Below are positions 15,530-38,463 of a stretch of DNA of 43,852 nt, in pieces (the stretch's first letter is position 1; every line of letters begins with the position of its first letter). Both the position numbers and the translations under genes were made by a program. This DNA comes from a virus. The notes under the pieces are model-generated. The model ran no database searches, was not told the origin of the DNA, and saw only the letters and a list, made by a program, of their open reading frames with translations. The stretch covers positions 1 to 43,852 of IMG/VR virus record IMGVR_UViG_3300024308_000201; one strand, written 5' to 3'.

Positions 15530-16158
15530 TTAGAAGCCGAGGGCCTTGGATACATCGCGATCGGCGTCGCTCAGGACCGGGTCGTCCGGGCTCGGGGCGA
15601 GGAATCCGATGATGCTTTCGTACTTGCCGCCGAACGCGGTTCCTATAACTGCAGCCGGCCGGTGGAACCGGTGCAGATCGTCGAATGGGTACAGTTCGTA
15701 GAACGCGCGCCAGCCGTCCAGCTCAGCTGCTGGCATCGCATCGATCTCGCCGAGTGTCTTGCCCAGGGTCAAAGCGAGCTGGTATCGGAACCACTCGCTG
15801 CTTCCTCGCCGGGCAAGCTTTCCTTTCCCTGGTAACTGTGCACCTCGCTGATGGCCTTGGTCAGCGCAATCTGCACCGCGAATTTCAGACGCTTGGCCTG
15901 CGACAGCGAAAGAGCCGGTTTCCCCTCGGGATCGCAAATGGCCTTCGCGATGAGGCGAGCCATTGATTCAGCCTGCTTTTCTGGGTCCTCGCTGGTCTGC
16001 CCGGCGAAGAACCCGCGCAGGACGCCAGCCTCCTGCTCGCGGATGTAAAACACGTGTTCTTTGCCGTCGGCCAGCTTCACCAGCCGCTCGTGCACATCAT
16101 CAGAGATGAAGAGAGAGGGATCCAGCAGCGGCACTGCAGCATTGGTGGTCTCGGTCAT
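15530..16158 (-). CDS. Tail assembly chaperone GT (made by -1 frameshift)
   Basis: Predicted 209-aa fusion. Ribosomes read the first 112 codons of gene G, slip back one base on GGGAAAG at 15829-15823, and continue through 97 codons of the T frame to 15530. The T frame has no start of its own and encodes a conserved-looking segment (SSEWFRYQLALTLGK). In lambda, G and GT in a fixed ratio coat the tape measure and recruit tail-tube subunits. Position between major tail protein and tape measure, heptamer and reading phase all match lambda. Confidence 0.88.
15769..16158 (-). CDS. Tail assembly chaperone G
   Basis: The 129-aa unshifted product, mostly helical, starting MTETTNAAVPLLDPSLF. Most ribosomes should make this form. 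Its last 17 residues overlap the T frame and look unstructured (Gly/Glu/Ser-rich). It acts with GT as a chaperone for the tape measure and is not in the finished virion. ATG 16158; the 62-bp gap to the major tail protein gene is the largest in this part of the operon. Confidence 0.88.
   Translation of the reverse strand: MTETTNAAVPLLDPSLFISDDVHERLVKLADGKEHVFYIREQEAGVLRGFFAGQTSEDPEKQAESMARLIAKAICDPEGKPALSLSQAKRLKFAVQIALTKAISEVHSYQGKESLPGEEAASGSDTSSL
15823..15829 (-). other. -1 ribosomal frameshift site GGGAAAG
   Basis: On the minus strand the heptamer reads G GGA AAG in the G frame, the same slippery heptamer and phase as lambda G-GT. The slip leads straight into the open T frame. Confidence 0.88.
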
Positions 16159-16771: not shown

Positions 16772-17125
16772 TCAGCGCTGATCGATGAAATCGGCCTCGA
16801 GGCCGACGCGGTACAGCTTGGTATCGGGGTCGCGGTTGTTGATCACGACGCGGTTGACGATCAGCGCGCCATCCAGCGCTGCCCGCACAGCCTCCGCCAG
16901 CTGCTCGACGCCTCCGTCGGCCTTGTGGTAGCAGTCGATCTGCACGGTGGTGAAATCGCCCCTTGGTGCTGTGCTCAGGTCGTCGAACGCTGAGCCGGTC
17001 ACGATCTGCCAGACGATGTAGGGGCGAGGCTCGTTCTGTGCCACTTCGCCGTGACGGCCGATTCGGTCATCAACAATCGCGGAAACTGCTGGAGTTCGGA
17101 TCGTCCTTGCCACCTTGGGGAACAT
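16772..17125 (-). CDS. Tail terminator/completion protein (DUF3168-like)
   Basis: A 117-aa protein. The opening FPKVARTIRTPAVSAIVDDR and the core RPYIVWQIV...D resemble the gpU/DUF3168 family that caps the tail tube and joins it to the head. ATG 17125 overlaps the previous stop (TGATG), which excludes the longer frame to 17248. Length agrees with the family. Confidence 0.8.
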   Translation of the reverse strand: MFPKVARTIRTPAVSAIVDDRIGRHGEVAQNEPRPYIVWQIVTGSAFDDLSTAPRGDFTTVQIDCYHKADGGVEQLAEAVRAALDGALIVNRVVINNRDPDTKLYRVGLEADFIDQR

Positions 17126-17616
17126 CAGCGGCGTCCTCCATTCTGCGCGGCGAGGCGCTTGGTTATCTGATCCAGGCGCTTCAGCAGGTCTTCGCTGACC
17201 ACGTCGATGATCTGGCTCCCCCGGCGCTGCACGGCCGGACGCAACCACGGATAGGCGGGTTGGGTACTGGACCCGTACTCCATGAGCTGGGCAGCCTTCC
17301 GGGTGGTCGTCTTCGAGCCATGCGCGTTCACGAATGCCTTGCGCTTCACACGCACCAGCTGCCGCTCGCCCTTGGTTCCTACCGGCGCCTTACCACGGCT
17401 GGCGATAATGCTGTTGACGGTGGTGTCCGTGCTGTCGGCGCCACCAATAGCTGCGGAACGGCGGAAGTTGTCCTTTGCCTGGTCGCGGAGCAACCTAGCG
17501 CCCTTGGCCAATGCGAGCTTGACAGGACCACCACGCTTGCTGACGACCTCAGCCGGCAACGCCTGCAGCGTCGCAAGGACACCATCAATCCCGTGGATCT
17601 GAACTTCGACCTTCAC
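17125..17616 (-). CDS. HK97-gp10-like tail completion/neck protein
   Basis: A 163-aa protein of the HK97 gp10 type. It has VQIHGIDGVLATLQALP at the start, a basic helical region with KGARLLRDQAKDNF, and YPWLRPAVQ near the C-terminus, the usual gp10 signature. It acts at the head-tail joint. GTG 17616 overlaps the glycosyltransferase stop as GTGA and has GAGGTG upstream, so the ATG at 17646 is rejected. Confidence 0.85.
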   Translation of the reverse strand: MKVEVQIHGIDGVLATLQALPAEVVSKRGGPVKLALAKGARLLRDQAKDNFRRSAAIGGADSTDTTVNSIIASRGKAPVGTKGERQLVRVKRKAFVNAHGSKTTTRKAAQLMEYGSSTQPAYPWLRPAVQRRGSQIIDVVSEDLLKRLDQITKRLAAQNGGRR

Positions 17617-18293
17617 AAGTACACCTCGGCATCGCCGCCGATCCAATGCCGCAGCAAGGCGCTGCTGGCGTCAGCCTCACCCTTGAAATCCGGGTCATGC
17701 CCCATTCCGATGCCACCGCGACCTGGCAGACCCTTGATCCCAACGACACGGTGGCCGCCGAACAGCCGGCGACCGCGCGGACGGCGCCACAGCTCCAGAT
17801 CGATGAACTTCGGCCGTGATCGGCAGGCGTCGGCGAAGTCGCGGAGCGCCGAGCCACGCATCGCGGTACTGCACAGGCTTGCGTGACCGGTGTTGGCCAG
17901 CTGCCGACCGCGCCGCTGCTCCACGTTGTAGTAGCGAGCGAGGTGCTCGCCCACCAGCTCGGCATGCTCCAGCTCGGCCGCGACCGTGGTCAGCCAGTCG
18001 CGCGCATACCAGTCGTCATCCTCAATGATCACCAGCCGATCTTCCGGACCAACTGCAGCAAGCCCCTTCAGCAGGTTGCGAGCCTGCGTGTTCTGCCCGG
18101 GCGCCCAATGTGGCGATGGGCGCACCAGCACCAGCTGCCAGCCCTCGCGCCGGAAGGTCACCGGCTGCGGCTCCGGGCCGTCGTCCACGATGATCCAGCG
18201 GACGGGGCCGGCGTAGTCCTGTCGGCCCATCCAACGTTCACACAGCGCCCAGGCAGCCGGCCGGGCACCGGTGGCCGTGAGCAGCGTCAGCAT
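17613..18293 (-). CDS. GT-A fold glycosyltransferase-like protein in the connector cluster
   Basis: A 226-aa protein resembling family 2 glycosyltransferases. The nucleotide-sugar strand ends in WIIVDDGPEP (Asp37-Asp38). LVIIEDDDWYARDW gives the DXD-type metal site at Asp92-94. The C-terminal half has KFIDLELWRRPRG and a His-containing tail. It has no membrane segment, so it should be cytoplasmic. It is the third of three non-structural genes between head closure and gp10. It could decorate a capsid or tail protein; donor and acceptor are unknown. Confidence 0.8.
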   Translation of the reverse strand: MLTLLTATGARPAAWALCERWMGRQDYAGPVRWIIVDDGPEPQPVTFRREGWQLVLVRPSPHWAPGQNTQARNLLKGLAAVGPEDRLVIIEDDDWYARDWLTTVAAELEHAELVGEHLARYYNVEQRRGRQLANTGHASLCSTAMRGSALRDFADACRSRPKFIDLELWRRPRGRRLFGGHRVVGIKGLPGRGGIGMGHDPDFKGEADASSALLRHWIGGDAEVYL

Positions 18294-18844
18294 CGCGCCA
18301 CCGCGAAGGTGTGCATCGGCAGCCGCCGGCGGGCCACGCCGCGTTCACCGTGATCGTTCAGTTCAATCGGCACCTCGCCGGCGTACTCGGTCGCGATAGC
18401 GTTGAACCCAGCATCAGCCAGCAGCAGCCGTAGGCCGCTCTGGCTGTACCGGTAGTAGTCGTCGGGGTAGCCGTGCTCCGGGAAGGCGAACAGTGTGGTG
18501 ATCACCAGCAGGCCACCCGGCTGCAGCACCCGGCGCAGCTCCGGCAGCGCCAGCCACGGCCGCGCCACGTGCTCCAGCACCTCGGAGCACACGATACCGC
18601 TGAAGCGCCTGGACCATTCCGGCGGCAGGTCGTGGATGTCGGCCACCTGGTCGACGCCCTCGCCCGCCTGCATGTCGATGCCGGTCCACTGCCCATTGGC
18701 CAGGTCACGGTTGGTGCACCACCAAGCTCCCGGGTCATGGATGCGGCTGCCAACCTCCAGAACATCGTCGCCGAGGGCAGCAGCATGGCGCTCGATGTAG
18801 GCGCGGATGCGCCCGCGCACCGAGTTAAGCGGCAGTCTGTTCAT
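18287..18844 (-). CDS. SAM-dependent methyltransferase (class I)
   Basis: A 185-aa Rossmann methyltransferase. Motif I is DVLEVGSR at 27-34, the acidic loop GIDMQ is at 55-59, and SEVLEHV at 87-93 is the Methyltransf_11 motif. VLQPGGLLVITTLF at 107-119 is the post-core strand. It resembles enzymes that methylate sugars or small metabolites rather than DNA, since it has no DPPY-type motif. It overlaps its neighbours by 20 and 7 nt, so it is translated together with the glycosyltransferase, and the two probably act on one product. Confidence 0.85.
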   Translation of the reverse strand: MNRLPLNSVRGRIRAYIERHAAALGDDVLEVGSRIHDPGAWWCTNRDLANGQWTGIDMQAGEGVDQVADIHDLPPEWSRRFSGIVCSEVLEHVARPWLALPELRRVLQPGGLLVITTLFAFPEHGYPDDYYRYSQSGLRLLLADAGFNAIATEYAGEVPIELNDHGERGVARRRLPMHTFAVARC

Positions 18845-19328
18845 CGAAATCGAAGCACCTGAGCGCTGAGCCGGCCGTGCAGTTCACGACGCGGACGTGG
18901 GGGTTCTGGCTCGCCCACAGGGCGAACTGTTGCTTGTGGATCTCGCGGCGGTGCGGCGCCGTGTTGGTCAGGCCGTTGGAATACGGCCCGAAGAAGTGGC
19001 TGCCGTGCATATCAAAGCCGTGCAGCCGAACCAGCGTCGCGCCCAGGTGGGCGGCAACCGCCAGCGCCAGCACGCCGCTGTTCCAGTTGGTCAGTGCTCC
19101 GGGCAGCTGGATCACTCCGCCAATCCTGTGGCTGCTGTAGCGCGCTCCAGCGAACTGCCGCGCCTCCGGGTACTTGTCCCACCACTGCCGATCGCTGGCC
19201 GCCAGGAACTCCGCCCACGGCGCCAGCTCGAAGGCGTTGCCGACCACGCCCACGCGGCGGCCGCGCAGCCGCTCGGCCAGGCTTGCCGATGCGCTCGGGC
19301 CTGGTCCAAGAAGGTCGATCTCGATCAT
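18825..19328 (-). CDS. DUF115/MptE-like protein
   Basis: A 167-aa protein starting at ATG 19328, which overlaps the head-closure stop as ATGA; the long frame to 19742 is a shadow. Features are RRVGVVGNAFELAPWAEFL, SDRQWWDKYPE, and GATLVRLHGFDMHGSHFFG at residues 97-114. This pattern recalls the DUF115/sialyltransferase-like Rossmann proteins that occur in bacterial glycosylation loci and many phages. First gene of the three-gene cassette; exact activity unknown. Confidence 0.7.
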   Translation of the reverse strand: MIEIDLLGPGPSASASLAERLRGRRVGVVGNAFELAPWAEFLAASDRQWWDKYPEARQFAGARYSSHRIGGVIQLPGALTNWNSGVLALAVAAHLGATLVRLHGFDMHGSHFFGPYSNGLTNTAPHRREIHKQQFALWASQNPHVRVVNCTAGSALRCFDFDEQTAA

Positions 19329-19666
19329 TGGCCGTCGTTGACCCCGGCCGAGACGGGAACGGTGATGTACTCCAGCCCCGAGGCCTTGTCCGGCAGCAGC
19401 CCGGCAATGTTGAAGATCTCGCCGCGGTGGACCAGCCGCATCGTCGGCACCAGGCCTTCGCGGTAGCGCATGGTGATCCGCGCAGTGACAGCGGCCTGCG
19501 TCTGTCCGGACTGGATGAACTCGCGGGCCGACAGAGGCTCTACCGACGCCCATACGGTGGCCACGTCGACCCACGCGGTCTGAGACACGCCATCGCTGTC
19601 CCTCGTGGTCACCTGCTGCTGGATCAGCACCCGGTGCCGCAGGGTTCCGCTGGCAACGTTGCTCAT
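19325..19666 (-). CDS. Head closure protein (head-tail joining)
   Basis: A 113-aa protein of the SPP1 gp16 / phage head-tail join family. The start GTLRHRVLIQQQ and the core VATVWASVEPLSAREFIQSGQ are the usual signature, followed by a beta-barrel (ITMRYREGL, then RGEIFNIAG). It plugs the connector after DNA packaging. Normal length. It starts at the previous stop and ends in an ATGA overlap. Confidence 0.93.
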   Translation of the reverse strand: MSNVASGTLRHRVLIQQQVTTRDSDGVSQTAWVDVATVWASVEPLSAREFIQSGQTQAAVTARITMRYREGLVPTMRLVHRGEIFNIAGLLPDKASGLEYITVPVSAGVNDGQ

Positions 19667-20061
19667 CAGGCCACCGTCGTGCGGCGCAGCGGCGCCAGCT
19701 GTGCGGTGGCGGCCTTCGACAGCACATAGCCGTGGCCAGCATCGGCCGGCACCACGTTGTCGCCCTCGCCCTCGCGGAAGCGGTACTGGGAGGCCAGCTC
19801 CAGCAGCGTCGCGGCGATCACCGATGGGTGCAGGATCGGCTCGCCACTGCTGTCCTCGGCCGGCACAGGCCGGCCTGCGCTGTCACGGACCAGTTCCCCA
19901 TCAGAGTCGCGCTGCAGCACGTACAGGCGCCACTCCTGCTTCAGCCACGCTGCCACAGACTCGGACACGGCCGGAATCCAGATCGCCAGCCAGCGGTCAT
20001 CAGCGTCGCTGTCGATGCGCATCTGCTCGCGGGCGTCCGCCGGGGTGACGAACTCACGCAT
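19666..20061 (-). CDS. Head-tail connector (adaptor) protein, gp6-like
   Basis: A 131-aa protein of the HK97 gp6 connector family. The opening MREFVTPADAREQMRID, then DDRWLAIWIPAVSESVAAWL, is the conserved helical pair that docks on the portal. ATG 20061 overlaps the upstream stop by 8 nt; the ATG at 20139 gives only low-complexity shadow sequence. It forms the adaptor ring below the portal. Confidence 0.88.
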   Translation of the reverse strand: MREFVTPADAREQMRIDSDADDRWLAIWIPAVSESVAAWLKQEWRLYVLQRDSDGELVRDSAGRPVPAEDSSGEPILHPSVIAATLLELASQYRFREGEGDNVVPADAGHGYVLSKAATAQLAPLRRTTVA

Positions 20062-20920
20062 GGCTGCCACCCAGCTGCACGGGCTCGGACGGAACGCGCA
20101 CGCTCTTGCCGTCCTTACCGTCGCGACCCTTGCGTGCACCCAGCGCCCAGTCCTGGTCGTTCTCCAGGCAGGGCTTCGACGCGTTGCTCCGCTTGGCGAT
20201 CCAAAGGGCGCCGTCGTGGGTGATGGATTCGCCCGCCTTCACGCCCAGCCCTTCGCGCCAGAAGCCGCGGTGCACCATGTAGGGCAGCACGAACTCCTTT
20301 CGGCGGTCGCCGGCCCCCAGCGTGATGACGAAGCCACGCTCGGCGTCATAGTCACCCGAGGCTGTGTCGAAGCTGAGGCCGTCCCGGCCATCCTCACCGA
20401 CGACCTTACCCAGCCTGATCGCCTCGCCCTTCGTGGTGGTGATCACCAGCTCGCCGGCGCGATCGATCATGGCGCCGGCCAGGCCGACACCGTCGGCGCC
20501 GGCCTGCGGCGGGTTCTCGGTCAGGTGCTTGGCTACCGCCGCAGCCAGCTGCTGCTCGGTGACTGGATCCGCGTCACGGCCATCCTTCGGCACTGGCATC
20601 GCGTCGACAGCGGCCTTCACCGTTGCCTCGATCATTGCGGGGTCTGCGTCCCGGCCATGCTGCACCGGGTTGGCTTCGAAGTGCTTGGAAACAGCGTCGG
20701 CGGTGGCCACGTCGACCAGCGTGAGCAGGCGCGGCGACTCCAGCAGCTTGGCCACGACCAGGTCTGCCAGCGCATCCACGTCCACCGGCTCGGCGTCCTG
20801 GCCGGGGTCGCCCTTCTCCGGGGCGCGCTCGCGCAGCTCTTCCAGCTCCCGCTTCACCGGTGCGATCGCCTCACGGATCAGGCCGCCGATCTCCTTGCCG
20901 AAGTCGATGGGGTCAGTCAT
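20054..20920 (-). CDS. Collagen-like virion protein with CBM5/12-like module
   Basis: A 288-aa protein with short collagen-type Gly-X-Y patches (GDPGQDA at 37, GRDADP at 89 and 114, GADG at 141, GEDGRDG at 175, GRDGKDG at 265). Residues about 218-262 contain RGFWREG, ESITHDGALWIAKR and DWALG with Trp221, Trp240 and Trp258. This is the aromatic pattern of small chitin/cellulose-binding-like modules found in phage virion proteins. The N-terminal 35 residues are a charged helix. It lies between portal and connector genes, so it may be an external head or neck decoration. Not a recognised essential gene. Confidence 0.72.
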   Translation of the reverse strand: MTDPIDFGKEIGGLIREAIAPVKRELEELRERAPEKGDPGQDAEPVDVDALADLVVAKLLESPRLLTLVDVATADAVSKHFEANPVQHGRDADPAMIEATVKAAVDAMPVPKDGRDADPVTEQQLAAAVAKHLTENPPQAGADGVGLAGAMIDRAGELVITTTKGEAIRLGKVVGEDGRDGLSFDTASGDYDAERGFVITLGAGDRRKEFVLPYMVHRGFWREGLGVKAGESITHDGALWIAKRSNASKPCLENDQDWALGARKGRDGKDGKSVRVPSEPVQLGGSHA

Positions 20921-22633: not shown

Positions 22634-24049
22634 TTACGAGCTGGACGGAACCGAACCGCTGCCCCAGTTCACGCGGGCCCAGGCGACGGCCTGTGCGCGG
22701 CGACGCTGCCAGTTGATGAAGCGCTCGACCAGGAACGCCACGCTGTTGGTCTGCCACAGCGAGACAACCTGCTGCGCGGTCGGCGTGGTGCTGTTCATGG
22801 TCGGGGCGTCATCCATCACCAGCGATGCCTGATCCGACATCGAAACCTGCAGGCCACCTTCGTCGCCCAGGAAGATCTCGTCGCCCTTGATCAGCGCGAT
22901 CACGGCACCGTCTTCATCGTCCGGCACGTACGCCGACACGAACGCAGGCAGGCCCAAGAAGGTGCCACCGGTGAAGTTGATGCCCGGGAACTCGGAAGCG
23001 CCCAGCGGGTTGACCATCAGCGACAGCGCGATTGCGGTACGCTCCGACATCGCCCAGAACGAGCCCGCCAGCGACAGGTTCGAACCTGCGATGGCATTCA
23101 TGAGCGCCGCAGCGCCAGCGCGGATCGAGTCCGGATCACTGCCAGCCGGCACCGTGGTGGCCGGTACGCCATTCAGGATCGAGGCGGGTGCCTCGTCGGC
23201 GACTGCTGCTGCATCCGGATCGATGAACTGCGTGTCGATGGTCTGATTGACCGCCCGGCCCAGCTCGTCGCGCAGCAGCGCATCGGCCGCCGGCGTGGCG
23301 CGCATCATGGTTTCCTTGGTCGCGGCAGCGATCGCGGCCACCTTCAGCGGGGTCAGCTTCGCACGGGTGTAGGACCACTTGGTCAGCGGCTTTGCAGCGC
23401 CTTCCTTGACCCACTTGGCCGTTCCGGCCGAACCCTGCACCAGCACCGGGGTGTCGAACGGAAGGTTGCGCAGGCGCTCGGAGACCTGACCCAACAGCGA
23501 GCGCGGGCGCAGCCACTCGACGAAGTCGGCGAAGGCCACGCCGCCATCGGTGATCAGGTTCCCGGCCCAGGTCGCGTTGCCGGTGCTGGCAGCCTGTACG
23601 GCGGCCTTCTCCTGGATGATGCCGTGCAGGCGCTCATCGTTCGGATAGATCGCGCGGGCCACGTCCAGCGGGTTCTGGTGGTGGACATGCGAAACGGCCA
23701 GGCAGCGGGCCATGCGGGCGAAGCCGATGCCGGCGTCGGTCTTGTCGACCGTCTTCAGCTGCGCCGGCTCCAGGGCACGGCCCTCGGCGCCGACGGTAGG
23801 CGAGCCCTGCGCCTTGACGATGGTCGCAACGGTGGTGGCCGACTTGGCCTGGATCGCCTGCAGGTGCTCGTAGCGCTCGATGTCGCCATCCAGCGAGGTG
23901 ATCTGGCTTTTCAGCGAGTCGAACTCCTCCTGTTCGCCGGTGTTCAGTGAGCGCTGCTCGTCAGCCGGCTTCTTCATGACGGCGGAGAGCTGCTTTTCCA
24001 GCTCAGCACGGGTAGCGCGGAGCTTTTCCAGCTGTTCTGCGATGTTCAT
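22634..24049 (-). CDS. Major capsid protein (HK97 fold) with N-terminal scaffold domain
   Basis: A 471-aa HK97-type capsid precursor. Residues 1-75 form a coiled coil (NIAEQLEKLRATRAELEKQL) like the HK97 delta domain, which serves as scaffold and is cut off by the prohead protease. The fold's markers follow: LRNLPFDTPVL, WVKEGAAKP, an E-loop-like region, and the A-domain with GEFPGINF-type sequence (SEFPGINFTGG) and LVERFINWQRRRA near the C-terminus. Preceded by 111 nt containing three hairpins rather than the usual overlap, suggesting separate control of its high expression. Confidence 0.95.
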   Translation of the reverse strand: MNIAEQLEKLRATRAELEKQLSAVMKKPADEQRSLNTGEQEEFDSLKSQITSLDGDIERYEHLQAIQAKSATTVATIVKAQGSPTVGAEGRALEPAQLKTVDKTDAGIGFARMARCLAVSHVHHQNPLDVARAIYPNDERLHGIIQEKAAVQAASTGNATWAGNLITDGGVAFADFVEWLRPRSLLGQVSERLRNLPFDTPVLVQGSAGTAKWVKEGAAKPLTKWSYTRAKLTPLKVAAIAAATKETMMRATPAADALLRDELGRAVNQTIDTQFIDPDAAAVADEAPASILNGVPATTVPAGSDPDSIRAGAAALMNAIAGSNLSLAGSFWAMSERTAIALSLMVNPLGASEFPGINFTGGTFLGLPAFVSAYVPDDEDGAVIALIKGDEIFLGDEGGLQVSMSDQASLVMDDAPTMNSTTPTAQQVVSLWQTNSVAFLVERFINWQRRRAQAVAWARVNWGSGSVPSSS

Positions 24050-37705: not shown

Positions 37706-37725
37706 GGTAAATTATGAACGTATTA

Positions 37726-37740
37726 ATTAGCGTCCCTGAT
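37726..37740. promoter_or_regulatory. Operator O3
   Basis: ATTAGCGTCCCTGAT ends at the base before ATG 37741. Centre 35 bp from O2. It would overlap the start point of a cI promoter whose -10 could be TATTAA at 37721, like lambda OR3 over PRM. Confidence 0.7.
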
Positions 37741-38463
37741 ATGGAACCTTCTCGCAAAGCGAAGCCGACCCCAGCCGACATCGCGGCCGCTGCGCGGCTG
37801 AAAGCGGCATGGGCCGACAAGGCTCGTTCACTCGGAATAACTCAAGAGAAGCTGGCTCACGAACTTGGAATCACACAAGGCGCCGTCAGCCAGTACCTCA
37901 ATGGCAAGATCCCGATGAACTACCGGACGCTCAAGGTGTTCGCGGCAGCCTTAGGAATTGAGGACACGGATATTCGGAAGGATTTGCCCGAGCAGCAGTA
38001 CACCTCCCCTACTCCGTCGGACGACGCCTGGGACGATATCGTCGGATACTCCCAGGCAGCCGGCCTTGGAGCCGGTGCGGAGGCGGCAGAGTACGCCGAG
38101 ACCCATAGTCTCAAGTTCAAGAAGACGAGCCTGCGCCGGCGCGGCATCTATGGACGCGACCTTGCCGTGTACTACGGCAAGGGCGACAGCATGGAGCCGA
38201 CCATAAAGGACGGCGATGCAATCCTGTTCGATACATCGGATACGCGTGTGGTCGATGGCGTTCTTTACGTCATCCAGGTCGACGGGATGGCTAACCCAGA
38301 GTATTTTGTGAAGCGCGCCATGGTTCTAGACACAGGCGTGTACTTCCAGAGCGATAACCCGCATGGCGACCATCAGTGGCGCAAGCCCAAGCCCATGGTT
38401 TCCACTCGCCACCCGATCACGGTGATCGGCCGCGTTCACTGGATTGGAGGATGGGCAGACTGA
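37741..38463 (+). CDS. cI: CI-type repressor, HTH plus S24 LexA-like protease
   Basis: A 240-aa lysogeny repressor. The N-terminal XRE helix-turn-helix is ARSLGITQEKLAHELGITQGAV at residues 28-49. A linker with a likely cleavage Ala-Gly lies near 107-112 (AAGLGAGAE). The C-terminal S24 peptidase has Ser150 (YGKGDSMEPT) and Lys191 (YFVKR). It should self-cleave with RecA during SOS, so the prophage is probably UV-inducible. An in-frame ATG at 37714 would put O3 inside the gene, so 37741 is preferred; neither has a Shine-Dalgarno. Its stop overlaps the next gene (TGATG). Confidence 0.92.
   Translation: MEPSRKAKPTPADIAAAARLKAAWADKARSLGITQEKLAHELGITQGAVSQYLNGKIPMNYRTLKVFAAALGIEDTDIRKDLPEQQYTSPTPSDDAWDDIVGYSQAAGLGAGAEAAEYAETHSLKFKKTSLRRRGIYGRDLAVYYGKGDSMEPTIKDGDAILFDTSDTRVVDGVLYVIQVDGMANPEYFVKRAMVLDTGVYFQSDNPHGDHQWRKPKPMVSTRHPITVIGRVHWIGGWAD

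Follow-up and report, generated by a model that had tools for sequence, protein, structure and literature searches.

A head-neck cassette of a CstII-like enzyme, a methyltransferase and a glycosyltransferase as a candidate virion-glycosylation module in a putatively temperate phage

Described systems that resemble the cassette

Glycosylation of virion proteins by phage-encoded enzymes has been reported for mycobacteriophages: PMC12363180, citing Freeman 2023, reports glycosylated proteins in Che8, Corndog and Myrna, and that article and PMC12619734 place the modification on capsid and tail tube proteins. In Corndog, an O-methyltransferase, two glycosyltransferases and a GlcNAc-transferase are encoded between the portal and protease genes, and the authors proposed that they modify the capsid (PMC4351075). 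The DNA that we describe here (the window: the whole of IMG/VR record IMGVR_UViG_3300024308_000201, 43,852 bases) is like these phages in that glycosyltransferase functions and a methyltransferase are phage-encoded, and like Corndog in that they lie among the structural genes. It differs in that the three characterised phages infect Mycobacterium, and in that the enzymes are not homologous, a comparison made for Che8 only: Che8 gp108–110 gave noise-level scores against the family profiles of the three window enzymes (MPT, MT and GT; Table 1), which rules them out as homologues of the cassette. The mycobacteriophage modification is reported as measured; for the window phage it is predicted from the genes.

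Homologues of MPT occur in several classic phages. Pseudomonas phages D3 (orf7, orf12, orf13) and PAJU2 (ORF010–012) both encode one in the head-neck block, together with GT-like and methyltransferase genes, and PAJU2 uses precisely the slot between Hc1 and gp10 that is occupied in the window. In contrast to the window, their glycosyltransferase is GT9-like and their methyltransferase belongs to another family (PHROG 6804 and 6564; Methyltransf_23); in D3, moreover, MPT stands apart from this pair, 3' of the MCP gene. The evidence for the GT9-like identity is weak but consistent (Pfam GT9 at E 0.069 for the homologue from Klebsiella phage Eowyn; TibC and WaaF in the PDB at E 0.04–0.06). Since these parts are not homologous to those of the window, the recipe of a CstII-like enzyme, a second glycosyltransferase and a methyltransferase recurs with other parts.

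P1 PmgO and P7 HdmB are also MPT homologues (37% over 89%), and P1 PmgP has weak matches to PHROG 4603 and to the MptE-like family; unlike the window, the PmgO/PmgP and HdmB/HdmC pairs come without a methyltransferase or a GT2-like partner. The annotation of pmgO and hdmB goes as far as putative head morphogenesis, and that of D3 orf7 as far as conserved hypothetical. CRISPRi and deletion surveys of P1 found pmgO and pmgP to be non-essential for plating (PMC10695390), as would be expected of an accessory modification.

Position and integrity of the cassette

The late genes of the window run along the minus strand in the order TerL, protease, MCP, portal, collagen-like gene, Ad1 and Hc1, followed by the cassette, gp10, and the genes for tail completion, major tail protein, chaperone and tape measure. 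The CI-like S24 repressor suggests a temperate phage, and Stenotrophomonas sp. 278 carries a prophage with the same layout that lacks MT, which points to Stenotrophomonas or a near relative of it as the probable host genus. In the Stenotrophomonas genome, the MPT family has one copy, in prophage only.

Table 1. Positions in the window of the cassette genes, their neighbours and other features discussed in the text
Feature	Position	Strand	Size, class or best match
MPT	18825–19328	-	167 aa; first cassette gene; GT42/CstII-like (MptE-like superfamily)
MT	18287–18844	-	185 aa; class I SAM-dependent methyltransferase
GT	17613–18293	-	226 aa; GT-A fold, GT2-like glycosyltransferase
Hc1 (head closure/head completion), upstream neighbour	19325–19666	-	PF05521, E 1.1e-28; PHROG 25, 6e-34
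HK97-gp10/Neck1-type gene, downstream neighbour	17125–17616	-	PHROG 5, E 7.9e-11
Collagen-like gene 3' of the portal gene	20054–20920	-	PHROG 1289, E 1e-26; head-type marker, outside the cassette
MCP	22634–24049	-	
CI-like repressor	37714–38463		S24

Our analysis supports the first-pass annotation in its main point, that a foreign cassette of three glycan-type enzymes lies inside the late structural operon: the minus strand from 19328 to 17613 does hold three open frames between Hc1 and gp10. The perfect ATGA/GTGA coupling that had been claimed for them applies to the outer junctions, where Hc1 and MPT overlap in an ATGA and the GTG start of gp10 overlaps the GT stop in a GTGA; it does not apply to the inner junctions, at which MPT and MT overlap by 20 bp and MT and GT by 7 bp. 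These inner lengths are kept in 58/62 and 77/84 locus comparisons, respectively, counts that include repeat loci from the same contigs. Furthermore, differences summed across close relatives fall at codon positions 1/2/3 as 138/116/441 in MPT, 78/85/524 in MT and 185/135/828 in GT; from the excess at third positions, all three frames are under purifying selection. Between positions 16000 and 20500 we detected no promoter-like site and no minus-strand terminator-like site, which fits the predicted co-expression of the cassette with the structural genes. None of the three proteins contains a transmembrane-like segment (the highest 19-residue Kyte-Doolittle means are 1.61 for MPT, 1.21 for MT and 0.82 for GT), in agreement with their initial description as cytoplasmic.

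That the cassette has been spliced into this position, as was first proposed, proved right. In relatives with an empty site, the TAG stop of Hc1 is followed after 2–5 nt by the ATG of gp10, with Hc1 82–92% identical and gp10 up to 99% identical to those of the window; in two loci (L180 and L237), DNA similarity to the window breaks off where Hc1 ends and restarts at gp10. Among the stretches compared, no short repeat of 6–12 bp is common to both cassette ends. The content of the cassette also varies: MT is cleanly absent from some relatives (L040 and L148 among them), and others (L023, L025) have MPT without MT or GT. Judged by this gene content, the methyl step is optional. A separate case is contig 3300012080_000021 (L118/L010), in which the cassette stops after MT, and GT, gp10, TC17 and MTP are all absent so that a chaperone gene adjoins; this gap is either a deletion or an assembly error.

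Predicted activities of the three enzymes

MPT has no Pfam family at E≤0.1. It does match PHROG 4603, labelled "alpha-2,3-sialyltransferase" (E 1.3e-26), and a Foldseek search with its AF2 model (pLDDT 93.8) ranked CstII (1ro8) first (probability 1.00, E 2.5e-3, TM 0.54 within a range of 0.42–0.62), with thiamin pyrophosphokinases as the next fold neighbours, so a pyrophosphokinase-type reaction is also conceivable for MPT. CstII, a Campylobacter GT42 alpha-2,3/2,8-sialyltransferase, was also the best PDB match of the MPT family profile, at an E of only 0.03, so that membership of GT42 is not significant by sequence in either Pfam or the PDB. The model thus predicts a CstII-type fold for MPT, with modest E-values. 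The two proteins have GPS and SGxxxxAxAxxLG motifs in common; MPT is shorter (167 residues against about 259–291 in the PDB chains), and identity is about 13%. In the weak profile alignment, GPS, N31 and S84-G85 of MPT align with CstII, and this putative nucleotide-site motif (GPS, N31, SG) is conserved throughout the MPT family, which also has an invariant His (H111).

These results bear on the name MptE-like that was first given to the protein. The window MPT has no match to the MptE-like family PF01973, and its relatives score below the gathering threshold of 34.6 bits (P1 PmgO 23.4, P1 PmgP 20.9, PAJU2 17). The sub-threshold matches in P1 and PAJU2 make the name understandable; we regard it as fair but coarse, bearing in mind that Pfam has no match, that PHROG 4603 does match and that CstII leads the fold search.

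MT passes the Pfam cut-offs for PF08241 (Methyltransf_11; 36 bits, cut-off 21.2) and PF13489 (Methyltransf_23; 33.2 bits, cut-off 27), which assigns it by sequence to the class I SAM methyltransferases. Its profile matched UbiG and EvdMO1 in the PDB, and it is likely to be an O-methyltransferase. No DNA-methyltransferase family matched MT, and the statement that it has no DNA-modifying motif therefore stands.

For GT, a Foldseek search with the AF2 model (pLDDT 94.8) placed SpsA (1qg8) first at E 6.7e-8, among 232 matches at E≤0.001, and so predicts a GT-A fold; its acidic metal-binding motif, EDDD (E91–D94), is invariant among 40 sequences. SpsA is a GT2-family protein of Bacillus subtilis to which GT is about 10% identical, and GT itself scores 19.0 bits against the GT2 family PF00535, under the cut-off of 23.3. 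Unlike SpsA, the phage GT family has a conserved C-terminal motif of its own, GIKGLPGRxGIG. In three loci (L099, L100 and L103), the GT domain is tandemly duplicated within a single protein.

Could the cassette act on phage DNA or on a small metabolite, producing a glycosylated base, nucleotide or cofactor? The resemblance of the modelled MPT to thiamin pyrophosphokinase would suit such a role, and DNA-hypermodifying phage glycosyltransferases do exist (reference 46 in PMC12619734). We nevertheless consider it very improbable: the subset of window ORFs that was scanned holds no base-modifying partner, the cassette sits among structural rather than replication genes, and in related cassettes the partner genes encode polysaccharide enzymes.

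Recurrence, head type and candidate acceptors

Against 50,697 phage records, tblastn with the window MPT and GT returned no match and with MT only three records; a distant GT used as query also found no match in them. D3, PAJU2, P1 and others were reached only with more distant MPT relatives as queries, which match D3 orf7, PAJU2 ORF010, P1 PmgO, P7 HdmB, Klebsiella phage Eowyn, Caulobacter phages and Tetraselmis virus S20. Scans for relatives returned 26 MPT, 97 GT and 50 MT. Dozens of viral contigs show the order MPT-MT-GT, in most cases within the head-neck block, with some counts resting on overlapping loci or related contigs. This order is kept even where the MCP, protease, Hc1 and tail genes (MTP) have no detectable kinship to those of the window, and in such phages GT is still about 50–70% and MT about 60–80% identical. 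The search for co-conservation in other phages that the first-pass annotation had suggested thus gave a strong result.

Partner enzymes vary more widely in other loci. The middle genes are GT2 and GT1 in one (L068), and WbsX (3e-101) and PhyH in another (L091); in a third (L212), a single protein joins MPT and a GT9-like domain. Some distant GT relatives lie on contigs without recognised head genes. We also noted an MPT relative in phage XacN1, for whose virion proteome at least two glycoproteins are reported, without a link to that relative (PMC5852040). Several further loci are of interest in their own right. Tetraselmis viridis virus S20 (NC_020840.1, 6271–11854), whose recorded host is an alga, has tailed-phage head genes and, between MCP and Hc1, two MPTs together with GTs and an MT; in a spring podovirus (MW202524.1, 901–9732), a series of genes for glycosyltransferases and methyltransferases follows the capsid gene; and on the Edaphovirga cremea chromosome (locus L150, 7424–8663) adjacent MPT and GT relatives lie near a phage integrase gene.

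The cassette also follows head type. Among close relatives of the window Hc1, the full cassette is present in 16/19 with a window-type head and in 0/15 with another head module. MPT lies after Hc1 in 22/23 window-type heads, and before Hc1 in 18/19 D3-type heads (PHROG 10 capsid), mostly right after MCP. MPT distances correlate with those of the portal (rho 0.71–0.76, Mantel p 0.001), whereas their correlation with MT or GT distances is about 0.1; MT and GT divergence does not follow head type, and their distances co-vary with each other and with the downstream MTP and TC17, a pattern to be expected under linkage or with an acceptor in the tail. These head-type tests are uncorrected for phylogeny, the contigs were roughly de-duplicated, and the association is confounded by linkage and shared ancestry; the numbers accordingly favour a head acceptor, short of proof.

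One reading of the portal correlation makes MPT a component of the particle, or a factor in its assembly, whose enzymatic activity is lost or secondary, with MT and GT as independent morons at the same site. It would accommodate the loci that have MPT without MT or GT, the head-morphogenesis annotation of P7 hdmB and P1 pmgO, and the label "structural protein", not one that an enzyme has to bear, given to PAJU2 ORF010 and to the homologue in Eowyn. Yet we found no literature source for the PAJU2 label and no traceable data behind it, P1 pmgO is dispensable in the surveys cited above, the putative nucleotide-site motif is kept family-wide, and the fusion of MPT to a GT9-like domain and the conserved order and overlaps of MPT, MT and GT also speak against it. 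We judge this reading improbable.

The main rival to virion glycosylation is modification of the host surface: a cytoplasmic host glycan (LPS core, a capsule precursor or pilin glycan) would be altered late in infection, which would spare progeny from being caught on debris or shut out rivals. In Gram-negative bacteria, lipooligosaccharide is a substrate of CstII and other GT42 enzymes; the GT9-like partners in D3 and PAJU2 weakly resemble the heptosyltransferases WaaF and TibC, WbsX belongs to a polysaccharide-locus family, and the near-identity of GT and MT across unrelated capsids could reflect a conserved acceptor outside the virion. On the other hand, the membrane protein, flippase and GtrB-like partner of gtr-type seroconversion are absent, the cassette sits in the late head-neck block away from the integrase and repressor, and, among phages with near-identical tails, both its presence and the divergence of MPT go with the type of head. 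D3, furthermore, seroconverts through other genes, namely an inhibitor, an O-acetylase and a polymerase (PMC12373910). We therefore regard host-surface modification as unlikely, though second among the explanations.

The proposal that the substrate is a virion protein rather than the cell surface is the better supported, by the head-neck recurrence in unrelated phages, by the concordance of MPT position and divergence with head type, and by the mycobacteriophage precedent; with the dispensability of P1 pmgO and pmgP added, these observations make virion glycosylation the most likely explanation. As to which virion protein is modified, tail tube and capsid are indistinguishable here, and the sequence evidence leans to the head. 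The window MCP has a Ser-rich C-terminus, GSGSVPSSS, that varies among relatives, and this end is Gly-rich in most of those that share the head type but lack the cassette. By analogy with mycobacteriophages, we considered the Ser-rich end as the acceptor; in several phages with the cassette, however, the capsid protein finishes in WGGA, WGN or WGQ, without Ser or Thr, so this idea is a hint at most. The collagen-like gene, which is present in window-type heads, encodes a protein with a Trp-rich C-terminal part and a homologue in PAJU2 ORF007. It may form a fibre of the neck or head, and is another possible acceptor.

Proposed pathway and significance

We thus consider it probable that the cassette is a late-expressed system that glycosylates a virion protein, probably one of the head, with optional methylation. 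Given the overlaps on both sides and the lack of an internal promoter-like site, the cassette would share its transcription and translation with the head-neck genes. MPT may then recognise a head protein, and would probably transfer to it a sugar from a host donor activated with CMP or another nucleotide. GT, in keeping with its predicted GT-A fold, would add a further sugar from a nucleotide-sugar, and MT, a methyltransferase by family, would cap or tailor the glycan by O-methylation, a step that some relatives appear to omit. The outcome would be decorated particles, perhaps shielded from proteins or antibodies, altered in adsorption or made more stable; the protection or changed binding that was first suggested would be among these putative benefits.

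More tentatively, MPT-centred cassettes may form a virion-glycosylation system that is widespread among phages of Gram-negative bacteria, D3 orf7 and P1 pmgO/P7 hdmB included. The CstII-like enzyme would then be fitted to the type of head, and the enzymes that build and methylate the glycan would be exchanged as interchangeable parts, giving diversity of particle glycans. The clean presence or absence of the cassette between near-identical tail modules provides natural matched pairs. If virion glycosylation is confirmed, a trait reported for mycobacteriophages would extend to phages of Stenotrophomonas and Pseudomonas, and possibly to P1 through PmgO and PmgP, by way of independently recruited enzymes; it would also give P1 pmgO, P7 hdmB, D3 orf7 and the large PHROG family 4603 a testable function.
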